64,000 nt of DNA from Okeania sp. SIO2C9 (GTDB lineage Bacteria; Cyanobacteriota; Cyanobacteriia; Cyanobacteriales; Microcoleaceae). This document shows, piece by piece, positions 1 through 6,465 of this stretch. A model generated the notes under the pieces. The model was not told the origin of the DNA. It saw only the letters and a program-made list of their open reading frames with translations, and made no database searches. The translations under genes and the position numbers were made by a program. The stretch is from assembly GCF_010672455.1 (NCBI RefSeq), contig NZ_JAAHGO010000009.1, positions 58,521-122,520 of the forward strand, read 5' to 3'. Position 1 is the stretch's first letter. Every line of letters begins with the position of its first letter.

Positions 1-122
1 AACCCAAAACTGGGTAAGAGGTCACATGACAAGTGTCAAACAATTGAGGAGCCGTGTGCAGGGAAACTTGCAAGCACGGTTTTGTAGGAGAGGGTGGGGG
101 AGCGATTCCCTACTCGACTCCA
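1..122 (+). mobile_element. 3' end of a group II intron (domains V and VI)
   Basis: The segment at about 49-82 has the form of a group II intron domain V: it begins GAGCCGT, has a GAAA tetraloop-like turn and closes with ACGGTTT. It matches in layout the domain V of the complete intron at 6009-6043. A second stem at about 85-120 would be domain VI, and the intron would end near 121-122 in AC. Downstream sequence at once reads as TnpB protein, so the intron interrupts that gene. The rest of the intron and any reverse transcriptase lie left of the window. The exact 3' splice site is inferred. Confidence 0.7.
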
Positions 123-997
123 CCAAACTATCACAGGATTGTATGTTTATAACTTTTACTGATAAGTTTAAATCTGGCAAATTTTCTCTGTATTGTAACT
201 CAGAAACAAGAGAGGATTTGTTTAGGTCAAAAATTAATCGAGTGAGAATAGTTAGACGTGCAGACGGTTATTATTGTCAGTTTTGTATAGATGCTAATAG
301 AGAAGAACCAGGAAATTATACTGGCAATGTTATAGGTATTGATTTAGGTTTAAAATACTTCTATAAAGACCAAAACGATCATGCTGTTGTTTATCCTCAA
401 TATTTAAGGTTTGCAGAAAAGAAATTAAAACGTCGGCAACGACAATTAAGCAAGAAGTTTGTGAAAGGCAAAAAGCGGTGCGACCCCGCGACGACGACAG
501 CTCGCTTGCGGAATGCGCACCAAGACAGCCTCAATCAAACAATTACCACAAAGCCAGAAAGAGACTAGGGTTATGTCACTTGAAGGTAAGTAGGCAGCGT
601 AAAGACGCTCTGCATTAAGCAAGCCCGGTGCGTAGTAGCATCTAACGATGTTGTCGTCTATGAGGACCTGAAGATACAAAACATGGTCAAAAACCATCAT
701 TTGGCAAAGTCAATATCTGACGCATCGTGGTATCAATTCACTCAATGGTTGGAATATTATGGAAAAATTTTGGGTAAAGCAGTTGTTTCAGTAAATCCCA
801 AATTCACTTCTCAAGATTGTTCTAATTGTGGGCATAGAGTCAAGAAAACTTTGTCAACTCGTACTCATGTTTGTCCTAGCTGTCATGCTGAAATATGTCG
901 TGATACTAACGCAGCACGAAACATCTTGAATCGTGGATTAGAAATAATAGGTATTGAGTGGAATCAAGGTACCGTAGGGCATACGGGAACCTCCTAG
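123..997 (+). pseudogene. tnpB: tnpB, IS200/IS605-family RNA-guided nuclease, interrupted and frameshifted
   Basis: Two fragments in one frame carry TnpB hallmarks: the RuvC-I segment GIDLGLKYF near 350, the RuvC-II segment VVYEDLK near 650-670, and a zinc ribbon (CSNCGH, CPSCH) followed by the RuvC-III Asp in CRDTNAARN near 815-920. Between about 477 and 650 the frame is broken. A 45-bp GC-rich hairpin element is inserted at 477-521, and the stretch NNYHKARKRLGLCHLK continues in another frame before a second shift. The N-terminal exon is separated by the group II intron at the window start. TnpB proteins are guide-RNA nucleases of IS605/IS1341 elements. All three catalytic acidic positions survive, but the gene cannot encode an intact protein. 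No tnpA is seen. Confidence 0.88.
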
Positions 998-1132
998 TAA
1001 TAGGGAACGCTTTGGGAGATAACGGCCTCTGCTAATGATGGGCAACTTGATTGAGTAAGCTGTGTCGATGAGCAAAGAATCACTTTTTGTGAGAATCCCC
1101 GTGCCTAACAGTCGGGGAGTATGTCAACTACT
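998..1132 (+). mobile_element. IS200/IS605 right end, possible guide-RNA scaffold
   Basis: The tnpB fragment is followed by about 100 nt and then a hairpin, CCCCG...CGGGG at about 1095-1119, ending in AGTATGTCA. The same terminal AGTATGTCA follows the hairpin behind the second tnpB at about 38978, so this is the element's right end. In this family the tnpB 3' end and right end encode the omega RNA and the adjacent flank acts as guide. That role is inferred here. Confidence 0.6.
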
Positions 1133-3003: not shown

Positions 3004-3085
3004 TAAGTGTTTGAGTTTTAGTTGTTAGTTGGTTAGCGGTTATTATTAAATGCTGCTAACCACTAAATGCTAATTGCGAGTTTTT

Positions 3086-3260
3086 GACATCCTCCTGACG
3101 TTTCGCGTAAGCGCAACGCGGGATTCCCTAACATCGCTGATAGGATTTTTCTGCTTCTAACGCACCTGCCTCCAAGGCCGAACCTCTTGTCGGTCTAAAG
3201 GTGTGCTCCACAGTAGGTCACCAATCCGACAGATCCTCTAGACACTGCTAGCTCAATAGC
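3086..3260 (-). mobile_element. Remnant of an IS200/IS605 right end, inverted
   Basis: On the minus strand this ends with a GC-rich palindrome followed by GGAGGATGTCAA, the usual terminus of IS1341-type elements. The preceding 100 nt share the phrase GGTCTAAAGGYGTGCT with 29145-29260, so both are decayed ends of the same kind of element. No coding frame survives. The rest of 3004-3390 holds only a GC-rich small repeat (about 3320-3378) directly upstream of the kinase start. Confidence 0.5.
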
Positions 3261-3390
3261 CTTATTCTTTGAGCATAGCATATTATTTTAAGAACCGCAA
3301 AATTGATTGGTTTTCGCGGACGACGCTCCCCTAATAGCTGCCGCACTTGCTTCGCCAACGGGAGAGCGCGGGTCTCCAACCAACGTTGAG

Positions 3391-6300
3391 ATGAGCAAAC
3401 TAATTATTCTGATTGGACTTCCAGCTAGTGGCAAATCCACTCTAGCAAGGAAAATAGTTACTAGATATCCTCAGTGTCAATTAATTGTGCGACTCGTTGG
3501 CTAGTCAAGACTGCTGAAAAGCAGGTATATCTAGCCTTCCAGGTCACGACATGAAGCTAATAACTTTCCCTACGGGATAACTTCGTTAACGACCTGTGAA
3601 AACTCTTATACCCTTGGTGGTGAAATTCCATCCGCCCTGTTGTTGGGTTGACAGCATGGGCCACATTGGTGAGACTGAACATCAAACTGGTGAAGCTGGT
3701 CCAAAAGCGGGAAAATACCAGTTACCGAGGAACGATACCGCAAGCAGAGGCTGACAAGTGGACGAACAGGAAGGTAATTAAACTCTCGTTAGACATGACC
3801 ACCTCAAAGGTAGCTATGGGGTGTAGGACGAAAGTCAGAGGGTCTATGGATATAAATATAGTTAAGTTTATATCAACAATCGTATCGAACCCTTCGGGAG
3901 AGTTTACCCCACTAAATCAGCCGTAATAAAGGAATAAGGGAACGAGAAAACCTCTTTGAGACACCTAAGAATATAGGTCGATAACTTAGGAAGCCATTCA
4001 AGGTGAATCTACGCTTTGGACGTAGGTCTTAGGGAGAGTAGGATTGGGTAAAAAGCTATCAAGCTGACGTACCCACTGTTAGACGTAATGTAAGGTAATT
4101 ATTAGCGATGAATAAAGCTAAAACACTAAAAAAAAGATTGGATAATCCAAAGCCCTTTCTTGAGTGTGTCTTACATTCTGAGGAGACCTCAGAATTACGC
4201 ACTCGCTTTTTAAGCGTGGCATGGGATACAGACGATGTTCCGTCCCAAGTCAGTGTCAACCCAAATATCCAATGGAAGGACATAAATTGGAAACGGGTAG
4301 AAACGTATGTATTTAAGTTGCAAAAGTTAATTTACAGAGCATCCAGCCGTGGCGAAATCCGCAAGATGCGCAAATACCAAAAACTTCTGACCAAAAGTTA
4401 TTATGCTAGGTTGCTAGCTGTTAGGCACGTGACACAGGATAACCAAGGACGAAAGACCGCAGGTGTGGACGGAATCAAGAATCTACCACCAATGCAACGC
4501 TTCAACCTGGTGTACCTACTTTCATCACGACACCTCAAAGCAAGCCCAACCCGTAGAGTCTGGATACCAAAACCAGGAAAAGATGAAAAACGTCCGTTAG
4601 GCATCCCTACGATGTATGACCGTGCGTTACAAGCCCTGGTGAAGCTAGGTATGGAACCAGAATGGGAAGCACGCTTTGAACCTAACAGCTATGGTTTTAG
4701 ACCAGGACGGTCAGCACATGATGCCATTGAGGCCATCTTTAACAGTATCTGCCAGAAATCAAAATATGTTTTAGATGCAGACATATCCAAATGTTTTGAC
4801 CGAATTAACCATGATGCACTGTTAGGAAAGATTGGAAAAACTCCATACAGAAGATTAATCAAACAATGGTTAAAATCCGGAGTTTTTGATAACAATCAAT
4901 TCCTAGACACTACGGAAGGTACACCGCAGGGAGGGGTAATTAGTCCCCTACTATCAAACATCGCCTTACATGGTATGGAAAAATGCCTCGAAGAATTTGC
5001 TAAAACCTTACCAGGAACAAAGCGAGTAAATAAACAGGCACTATCCATAATACGCTATGCTGATGACTTTGTAATCCTACATGAAGATATCAAAGTAGTC
5101 CTGCAAGCTAAAACGGTAATACAGGAATGGTTAAACCAGGTAGGATTAGAACTAAAACCAGAAAAAACTAAAATTGTCCACACCCTAGAAGAATATGAAG
5201 GTAATCAACCCGGATTTGACTTCTTAGGTTTCACAATCAGGCAATGGAAAGTTAAGTCAACTAAAAAAGGATTTAAAACGCTGATTAAACCATCTTCCAA
5301 GAGTATTAAAACTCATTATCGGAAACTGGCAGATATATGTGATTCACATAAATCTGCCCCTACAAAAGCTCTAGTAGCTAAACTAAACCCGGTAATTAGG
5401 GGATGGGCTAACTACTTCTCAACCAAAGTCAGCAAGAAGGTATTCAGTAAAATGGATAGCCTCCTATGGAAAAGACTATGGAGGTGGGCAAGTAGAAGGC
5501 ATCCAAATAAGTCCGCCAAATGGGTGAAGAAAAAGTATTTCCCCCGCTGCAAAGAAACCCGAAACTGGATACTTAACGACGGCGAATATATACTAAACCA
5601 ACACTCGGATGTATCTATTATAAGGCACATCAAGGTGAAAGGTAGTAAATCCCCTTATGACGGCGATTGGACTTATTGGAGTAACAGAATCGGTAAATAT
5701 CCAGGCGTAAGGAAAGAAGTCGCAACGCTATTAAAACGACAAAAAAATAAATGCGCATTTTGTGGACTAACCTTTAGATCGACTGACCTTATGGAAGTTG
5801 ACCATATAAAACCAAGGTCTAAAGGTGGTGACAACACACTCAAAAATAAACAATTGTTGCACCGACATTGCCACGACAGTAAAACAGCGTCAGATAACAA
5901 GACATATCCACAATTTAAGCCACAGGACTTACCTGAAAATTATATATGGATTGACGATATGTTAACTCTGAAGCAAGATGTACCCATGAAAAGGGACGTT
6001 TAAGAGAGGAGCCGTGATGAGGTGAAAGTCTCACGTCCGGTTCTGAAGACAAGCAGACTCTATAAAGGGATAACCGGAAATGGGTTTGCTTAGTTTAACT
6101 CTACTGATGCTATCCGTGCTCAGTTATTTGGTGATGAAGCAATTCAAGGGCCTTGGCTCCAAGTATGGCAGCAAGTACAGCAACAATTTTACCAAGCTGT
6201 ACGCCAGACATCTCTCGCCATATATGACGCTACTAATGTCCAACGTCGGCAACGACGACAAGTAATTGACTTGGCAAAGGAAAGTGGATTTAGCCATCTA

Positions 6301-6465
6301 ACTGGTTTATGGCTTGACAAATCATTAGAATTATGCTTAAAAAGAAATCTACAACGACAGCGTCAAGTTCCTGAAGAAGTAATAATGAAAATGTATCGAC
6401 AGTTAACAGATGCTCCTCCTTCTTGTAAAGAAGGATTAGACGTACTGAAACGAATTGCTAAATAA
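3391..6465 (+). CDS. Small AAA/zeta-type P-loop kinase, split by a group II intron
   Basis: Exon 1 is 3391-3486 and exon 2 is 6100-6465. Joining them gives an uninterrupted 153-residue protein. Exon 1 holds the Walker A motif GLPASGKST (residues 9-17) and stops exactly at a codon boundary after QLI. Exon 2 resumes STDAIRAQLFGDE and continues YDATNVQRRQRRQVIDLA, the order seen in AAA_33/polynucleotide-kinase-like ATPases. The reading frame across the inferred junction is perfect, so splicing should restore a working protein. The substrate is unknown; relatives phosphorylate nucleic acids or small metabolites, and zeta toxins share the fold. ATG at 3391 is chosen because the conserved sequence starts there. 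A GC-rich small repeat sits just upstream and may have replaced the native promoter region. Confidence 0.82.
3487..6099 (+). mobile_element. Complete group II intron (chloroplast-like type)
   Basis: The 2613-nt element begins GTGCGAC, matching the group II 5' consensus GTGYG. Domain V lies at 6009-6043 (GAGCCGT...CGGTTC). A domain VI stem, AGCAGAC paired with GTTTGCT, lies near 6053-6090, and the end is AC at 6098-6099. An intron-encoded protein occupies domain IV. A possible EBS1, AATTAA at 3776-3781, is complementary to TTAATT, the last six exon bases before the insertion. The flanking gene reads in frame when the intron is removed, so the ends are well constrained. It appears intact and may still splice and move. 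Confidence 0.9.
4108..6003 (+). CDS. ltrA: Group II intron-encoded reverse transcriptase/maturase with HNH endonuclease
   Basis: A 631-residue intron protein. The reverse transcriptase domain spans about residues 70-370, with the primer/template blocks PLGIPTMYDRALQALV, the YGFRPGRS segment, the TPQGGVISPLLSN block and the catalytic YADD motif (SIIRYADDFVIL). The maturase X domain follows (NPVIRGWANYF). Near the C-terminus is an HNH nuclease with CAFCG, DLMEVDHIKPRSKGG and HRHCHD. This order is standard for mobile group II introns: the protein aids splicing, nicks target DNA and copies the intron RNA. All key motifs are intact. ATG at 4108 is used; no clear ribosome-binding site is visible. 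It lies wholly inside the intron at 3487-6099. Confidence 0.95.
   Translation: MNKAKTLKKRLDNPKPFLECVLHSEETSELRTRFLSVAWDTDDVPSQVSVNPNIQWKDINWKRVETYVFKLQKLIYRASSRGEIRKMRKYQKLLTKSYYARLLAVRHVTQDNQGRKTAGVDGIKNLPPMQRFNLVYLLSSRHLKASPTRRVWIPKPGKDEKRPLGIPTMYDRALQALVKLGMEPEWEARFEPNSYGFRPGRSAHDAIEAIFNSICQKSKYVLDADISKCFDRINHDALLGKIGKTPYRRLIKQWLKSGVFDNNQFLDTTEGTPQGGVISPLLSNIALHGMEKCLEEFAKTLPGTKRVNKQALSIIRYADDFVILHEDIKVVLQAKTVIQEWLNQVGLELKPEKTKIVHTLEEYEGNQPGFDFLGFTIRQWKVKSTKKGFKTLIKPSSKSIKTHYRKLADICDSHKSAPTKALVAKLNPVIRGWANYFSTKVSKKVFSKMDSLLWKRLWRWASRRHPNKSAKWVKKKYFPRCKETRNWILNDGEYILNQHSDVSIIRHIKVKGSKSPYDGDWTYWSNRIGKYPGVRKEVATLLKRQKNKCAFCGLTFRSTDLMEVDHIKPRSKGGDNTLKNKQLLHRHCHDSKTASDNKTYPQFKPQDLPENYIWIDDMLTLKQDVPMKRDV

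Follow-up and report, generated by a model that had tools for sequence, protein, structure and literature searches.

Group II introns that reside in conserved genes have been described in Trichodesmium erythraeum, where they splice in vivo and thereby restore the mRNA and where one locus, Tery_4732, holds a twintron (PMC4649490). The group IIB introns of Thermosynechococcus elongatus form a proliferating family of 28 copies in six families of exon-binding sites (EBS), select their targets by EBS pairing together with preferences upstream of intron-binding site 2 (IBS2), and are retargeted by EBS change (PMC2882425). Eight group IIA introns of the Oedocladium chloroplast, which lack an intron-encoded protein (IEP), exhibit highly variable EBS, near-perfect pairing to their sites and nucleotide preferences at -13 to -24 (PMC5088586), a variability that has been read as retrohoming following EBS divergence, later adaptation being also possible. 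For bacterial group I introns, it has been stated that a stop codon just past the 5' splice site prevents ribosomes from entering the structured intron (PMC3073962). In this work we describe a group II intron that interrupts, exactly between codons, the gene of a P-loop kinase in Okeania sp. SIO2C9 (positions 3487-6099 of a stretch of 64,000 nucleotides (nt) of contig NZ_JAAHGO010000009.1, hereafter the window), together with the intron family to which it belongs.

The kinase intron resembles those of T. erythraeum in that both inhabit conserved genes of related marine cyanobacteria, and the twintron reported there finds a counterpart in a moaC twintron here; it differs in its host gene, in being single and uninterrupted, and in being known from sequence alone. 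Like the T. elongatus introns, the family has proliferated in cyanobacteria, combines EBS pairing with preferences upstream of IBS2 and is retargeted through changes of its EBS, but the combination of EBS1 and EBS2 is distinct at 118 of 118 sites compared. Variable EBS, near-perfect site pairing and nucleotide preferences are likewise shared with Oedocladium, in contrast to which the present set comprises 118 bacterial sites of an IEP-bearing family and permits copies at the same site to be compared with copies at different sites. The early stop stated for group I introns recurs here in a group II family with an excess of insertions between codons (phase 0). Two traits of this family are unusual, namely private guide sequences that are usually matched to each copy's own site and genic copies most of which lie between codons, and the family constitutes a good natural record of how group II introns become established in genes.

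The interrupted kinase gene and its intron

The locus comprises the following features:

3391-3486, + strand: kinase exon 1, codons 1-32, with what we take to be the Walker A motif; collinear with intronless orthologues in four of four congeners
3487-6099, + strand: group II intron, 2613 nt, delimited by the empty site in congeners, Rfam D5-D6, a GTGCG start and an AC end
3502-3504, + strand: in-frame TAG, sixth intron codon in the frame of exon 1, read from the sequence
4108-6003, + strand: IEP, 631 amino acids, with reverse transcriptase, maturase and HNH endonuclease
6006-6047, + strand: domain V, Rfam RF04357 / RF00029, above the gathering score
6047-6096, + strand: domain VI hairpin, from folding, with a bulged (branch-point) A at 6092
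6100-6465, + strand: exon 2 of the kinase gene, from the STDAIR motif through the stop; intronless orthologues in congeners

The two exons join into 462 nt, that is 153 codons plus a stop, all of them intact and free of stops and frameshifts, and the joined protein belongs to the family AAA_33 (residues 4-134, 102 bits against a cut-off of 27 in Pfam). The sequence-only reading had proposed that the two halves form one gene and that removal of 3487-6099 restores the frame exactly, and it had named a search for intronless orthologues as a check; both proposals are borne out, since each of the four same-genus genomes searched (G001-G004, the congeners) holds a single uninterrupted match to residues 1-153 that spans both exons. 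Against these orthologues 460-462 of the 462 bases align at 94.3-95.4% identity, no base is gained or lost at the junction, and the 16 bases on its 5' side and the 17 on its 3' side are the same in the split exons as in all four empty sites. The ends of the intron are exact and are set by the empty-site comparison, not by motif alone. The intron is present in just one of the five same-genus genomes, that of the source, and a search of this genome for a second copy of the kinase found none, the two matches being the two exons themselves.

The intron proved as complete as the earlier reading had held it to be, with a consensus 5' end, domains V and VI and an intact reverse transcriptase-maturase-HNH protein. 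It opens with GTGCGACTCG and closes with TTTAAC, which agrees with the GUGYG and AY termini of group II introns (GTGCG at 3487, AC at 6098-6099). The Rfam group II D5-D6 model covers 6007-6099, and a fold of 6004-6099 (z = -4.27; as good a fold in none of 200 shuffles) leaves A6092, eighth from the intron 3' end, as the single bulged base of domain VI. The IEP carries the Pfam domains RVT_N, RVT_1, GIIM and HNH, matches NCBIfam TIGR04416 (358 bits against a cut-off of 300), and has as its nearest solved relative PDB 6me0 (E = 1.8e-117), presumably the T.el4h intron of T. elongatus. An unspliced message is translated as exon 1 plus five residues before it meets the TAG at 3502-3504, and full-length kinase can therefore arise from the spliced transcript only.

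The anatomy, the empty site, the guide pairing (see below) and the frame of the kinase intron are established, and it likely splices. We conclude that the locus very probably represents an HNH-bearing mobile group II intron which is spliced out of a P-loop kinase gene with the frame restored, no regulatory role being needed to account for it. The intron would have entered a conserved cyanobacterial AAA_33 kinase gene on its sense strand after the species had separated from its congeners, recognizing its target through EBS1, EBS2 and EBS3 and inserting by reverse splicing and target-primed reverse transcription. Lariat splicing, helped by the intron's own maturase, would then remove it and restore the frame exactly, while the TAG at the sixth intron codon would halt ribosomes short of the ribozyme core; the whole event would be one of many insertions by this family in the clade.

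The neighbourhood of the kinase gene is common to the congeners, with glgC upstream (from profile matches) and dnaJ downstream (named by eye). Within the intron, a palindromic repeat at window 4155-4210, in the N-terminal part of the open reading frame (ORF), recurs elsewhere in the genome and seems to have been turned into coding sequence. The tip of domain VI comes in two kinds within the one family, short in 10 of the 13 3' ends listed and longer in 3 of them (the kinase intron, L008 and L020).

Family members in other genes and the phase of insertion

The 14-base intron start GTGYGACTCGTTGG has 18 exact matches in the source genome and is found in 21 of the 118 genomes searched, the reversed control giving 0 or 1 matches per genome. 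The 179 exact matches in these 21 genomes reduce to 171 unique sites (the rest being duplicates, near contig ends or not fetched), 19 of which fall outside the family by blastn; the 152 family sites thus retained form 134 insertion clusters once orthologous insertions are merged, and guide comparisons use the 118 introns and sites with enough sequence. At 17 of the 152 family sites the contig ends before 450 nt, in seven cases at exactly 127 nt, a pattern that we take to mark nearly identical copies left unresolved in the assemblies, so that the EBS comparison probably lacks the most recent copies.

Several conserved genes of one bacterium appear from these data to depend on splicing. In the source genome, sister introns split in frame the genes for a HIT-family protein, ribose-5-phosphate isomerase, HisH, MoaC and a peroxiredoxin, as well as an HD-domain gene (the latter in phase 1), and the joined products match Pfam families; all 12 joined proteins run against Pfam score above the cut-off of their family. 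The peroxiredoxin gene (L003 + L009, G000:C57:43859-49052) has three exons, the middle one of 72 nt, separated by two group II introns, and its joined product is AhpC-TSA. In the moaC twintron (L295, G000:C57:4000-11800) the family intron hosts a second group II intron, and each of the two carries a reverse transcriptase-maturase-HNH protein and a domain V. Two more first exons in the same genome resemble a permease and a DNA methyltransferase (by eye, from the first exons alone). Among the 26 genic insertions whose 3' end was found, the joined frame is the longest of the three in 23.

These results bear on how exceptional the kinase case is. The earlier claim that group II introns of bacteria are mostly located outside genes agrees, as regards housekeeping genes, with the literature, which also reports introns in housekeeping genes of cyanobacteria (PMC4424553). 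The companion idea that the kinase case is exceptional finds no support, since sister introns split several conserved genes of the same genome; with cyanobacterial housekeeping-gene introns already in print, the kinase intron joins a known class, and the single kinase insertion is ordinary for its lineage.

One peculiarity of the family is the phase of its insertions. Phase was counted where at least 60 open codons lie upstream in one frame and the other frames have at most half of that, thereby leaving out 84 of the 134 clusters, hisH among them. The 50 independent genic insertions so defined fall into phases 0, 1 and 2 as 41, 6 and 3 (p = 2e-12 against one third). Their representatives stem from 12 genomes, with phase 0 in 17 of 20 cases in the own genus (g1), 22 of 27 in a related genus (g7) and 2 of 3 elsewhere.

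One explanation would derive the whole of this bias from the survival of insertions that meet an early stop within the intron, and none of it from the choice of target. Consistent with it, an in-frame stop lies within 27 nt in 40 of the 41 phase-0 introns and at 26-41 nt in all nine phase-1 and phase-2 introns, four of which lack a frame-0 stop within 27 nt; moreover, phase-1 introns have their frame-1 stops earlier than the other introns do (p = 0.026), the corresponding value for phase 2 being p = 0.057. However, 75 of the 84 copies without a clear upstream frame keep the frame-0 stop, which may thus be structural, and a target matrix built from the 20-base stretch that precedes insertions lacking a clear frame, once slid along coding sequence (45 ORFs of at least 200 codons from the window and eight loci, some of them possibly false), alone predicts 56-62% phase 0, an expectation that may be inflated by decayed or short genic sites in the matrix. 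Pure early-stop selection was dropped after this control, and we consider it quite improbable.

The matrix prefers T at -19, -16 and -13 and a purine at -15. Third codon positions of coding sequence are rich in T and first positions in purines, so that the preference resembles codon periodicity and phase 0 is therefore favoured in coding DNA. Columns -20 to -13 alone give 54% phase 0 and the IBS columns alone 37%, as against a mean of 35% for shuffled-column matrices (5-95% range 20-52%); the sense strand is mildly preferred (58%). Over five cut-offs, the phase-0 excess that remains has p values of 1e-4 to 2e-3 when set against the point expectation; with the matrix at its upper 95% bound they are 0.012 to 0.12. 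Target preference accounts for a good part of the phase-0 bias, the size of the residual being uncertain; insertions that meet an in-frame stop early probably survive better and so add to the excess, to an uncertain extent. The phase-0 excess and a measurable target preference together outline a concrete route from a group II intron to a phase bias, a result that touches the long debate on the phase bias of spliceosomal introns; the open-access literature searched yielded no paper on a phase bias of bacterial group II introns.

Two host genes of the family, at L228 and L231 (ribonucleotide reductase-like and ThyX-like, by eye), have joined products that apparently contain an intein too. The intron L200 lies in an RlpA-like gene (by eye), directly before a stop codon, with 0 open codons past the join.

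Guide pairing and its variation among copies

The guide sequences of the kinase intron and their exon partners are as follows:

3474-3478, + strand: IBS2 (GTGTC), -13 to -9, from covariation over 118 sister introns
3481-3486, + strand: IBS1 (TTAATT), -6 to -1, from the covariation scan
3792-3796, + strand: EBS2 (GACAT), pairing with IBS2 at 5 of 5 positions, including one G-U
3860-3865, + strand: EBS1 (AGTTAA), pairing with IBS1 at 6 of 6 positions, including one G-U
3902, + strand: EBS3 (G), offset 415, wobble with the first base of exon 2, T

They were located by a blind covariation scan of the first 480 nt of 118 aligned introns against the 5' exon, which returned one clear peak each for EBS1 and EBS2; the EBS1 peak has a mean of 5.13 of 6 pairs against 2.63 over 1000 shuffles (highest shuffle 3.03). 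The EBS2 peak at 3791-3796 was trimmed to 3792-3796 because position -8 is unpaired, pairing at 0.24 only and lying outside IBS2. The kinase intron pairs with its 5' exon through EBS1 and EBS2, as group II introns do, and in pairing EBS3 separately with the base that opens exon 2 it shows a mark of subgroup IIB; across 69 introns (orthologous copies not merged) EBS3 and +1 form Watson-Crick pairs in 93%, against 47% expected. An earlier placement by eye of EBS1 at 3776 (AATTAA) and EBS2 near 3752 (TGACA) was ruled out by the same scan. Other 6 of 6 matches to IBS1 in the first 480 nt of the kinase intron lie at 3646 and 3776, and checking found no further guide pairing at alignment columns 303 and 292.

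Throughout the family, 85 of the 118 introns pair at 10 or 11 of the 11 EBS1 and EBS2 positions; EBS1 pairs at 6 of 6 positions in 75 introns, at 5 in 19 and at 4 or fewer in 24. Watson-Crick pairs outnumber G-U pairs by 974 to 129, as opposed to roughly 2:1 in shuffled comparisons. Pairing at 10 or more positions is reached by 70% of the copies outside clear genes and 76% of the genic copies, and this near equality speaks against a fitting of the guides by host selection alone.

Copies at the same site that are more than 80% identical (25 pairs) have 9.4 of 11 EBS bases in common, whereas copies at different sites whose 5' regions outside the EBS are 90-94% identical (309 pairs) have 3.2, compared with 3.0 for distant pairs, a similarity near the chance level. 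Within these 309 pairs, EBS1 retains 1.9 of its 6 bases, as against 4.2 of 6 in the most variable control 6-mer. The 61 different-site pairs with at least 92% identity in the 5' region share a mean of 3.4 of 11 EBS bases and never 8 or more, and the two closest different-site pairs by BLAST share 0 of 11 (96.1% over 1291 nt) and 4 of 11 (95.6% over 1855 nt). The sharing of EBS among close copies that characterizes T. elongatus is absent from this comparison, outside which the youngest copies fall.

The loss of identity is local: between sites it falls within about 10 nt of the EBS and has recovered to about 0.93 once the nearest EBS is 20-40 nt away. Bases at 4-10 nt from the EBS have an identity of 0.76 between sites, as against 0.94 at the same site. 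Gene conversion, considered as a source of alike bodies with private guides, is unlikely because identity recovers 20-40 nt away and the class that recovers to about 0.93 includes the stretch between EBS2 and EBS1.

A bolder proposal is that the family rewrites its own guides at or soon after each transposition, the 5 nt of EBS2 and the 6 nt of EBS1 giving way wholesale to a complement of the new target; the body would then be inherited, the guides not. The distinct guides at all 118 sites, their close pairing inside and outside genes, and the low sharing between close copies at different sites as opposed to copies at one site speak for it. Both the 24 introns that pair at 4 or fewer positions in EBS1 and the probable hiding of the youngest copies by contig ends tell against it, and we regard it as improbable. 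Just as doubtful is its extension, according to which guide rewriting and the codon-periodic target preference would together make the family a self-reprogramming retroelement adapted to life between host codons. The guides may instead have changed in many small steps through intermediate copies since lost, or a fast compensatory change may follow mismatched insertion. Should the absence of guide inheritance among close copies hold true in complete genomes, it would point to an unknown reprogramming step; no paper on guide rewriting was found in the open-access literature searched.

Fate of the kinase gene

One further feature adjoins the gene:

3084-3390, + strand: dispersed repeat, 307 nt, ending directly at the kinase start codon, from comparison with the congeners

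The sequence-only reading had also suggested that dependence on splicing could turn the intron into a control point. In a regulatory switch of this kind, conditional splicing would set the level of the kinase. That the full kinase requires splicing, owing to the TAG at 3502-3504, and that the intron is undamaged and pairs well with its site would suit such a switch. Nevertheless, the insertion is limited to one of five same-genus genomes, the same intron family hits many unrelated genes, the kinase is decayed or broken in three relatives (G010, G025 and G028), and at gathering thresholds only group II intron models of Rfam overlap the kinase intron. The control point thus finds no support, and we consider a regulatory switch extremely improbable.

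Several observations do weigh against the simple account of a mobile intron spliced from a functional kinase gene. In the kinase intron the EBS3-IBS3 pair is a G-U wobble only, and two of the upstream bases of its site, C at -15 and G at -13, are not those preferred, although T at -16 fits. The nearest near-full-length sister in the same genome is just 85% identical, and recent mobility is therefore not apparent from the copies compared. In the family, 3 of the 26 joins do not give the longest frame (L002, ending after 28 codons; L288, ending after 40; and L200, stopped immediately past the join). As regards the gene itself, the 307-nt repeat, which has 53 matches in the source genome (fragments included) and does not directly precede the kinase in the four congeners, abuts the start codon, so that expression of the kinase is possibly low regardless of the intron. 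The kinase differs from the four agreeing congeners at 8 positions, 3 of them synonymous and 5 non-synonymous; among the 5 changes absent from the outgroup L027, there are 1 synonymous and 4 non-synonymous ones. The gene may accordingly be under relaxed constraint in the source species, to judge from these substitutions.

Taken further, the same substitutions, the repeat at the start codon and the broken gene in G010, G025 and G028 would fit a kinase that is already dying in the source species, with the intron as a passenger and a product that no longer matters. Against this stand both exons, which are without stop or frameshift over 153 intact codons, the intact EBS/IBS pairing of the intron, and the pairwise ratio of non-synonymous to synonymous substitution rates (0.23-0.38 against the congeners), a value too weak to show selection since the insertion. 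We deem a dying kinase somewhat unlikely, and maintain that a mobile intron very probably spliced from a kinase gene with its frame restored best describes the locus.

Two minor observations concern the surroundings. At L056, an inverted copy of the end of the 307-nt repeat (GACATCCTCCTGACGTTTC) lies just upstream of the kinase (by eye). At window 47-123, domains V-VI of another group II intron lie beside fragments of a TnpB gene (26-568 and 683-997), and window 1-1000 perhaps represents an intron in an IS605-type gene.

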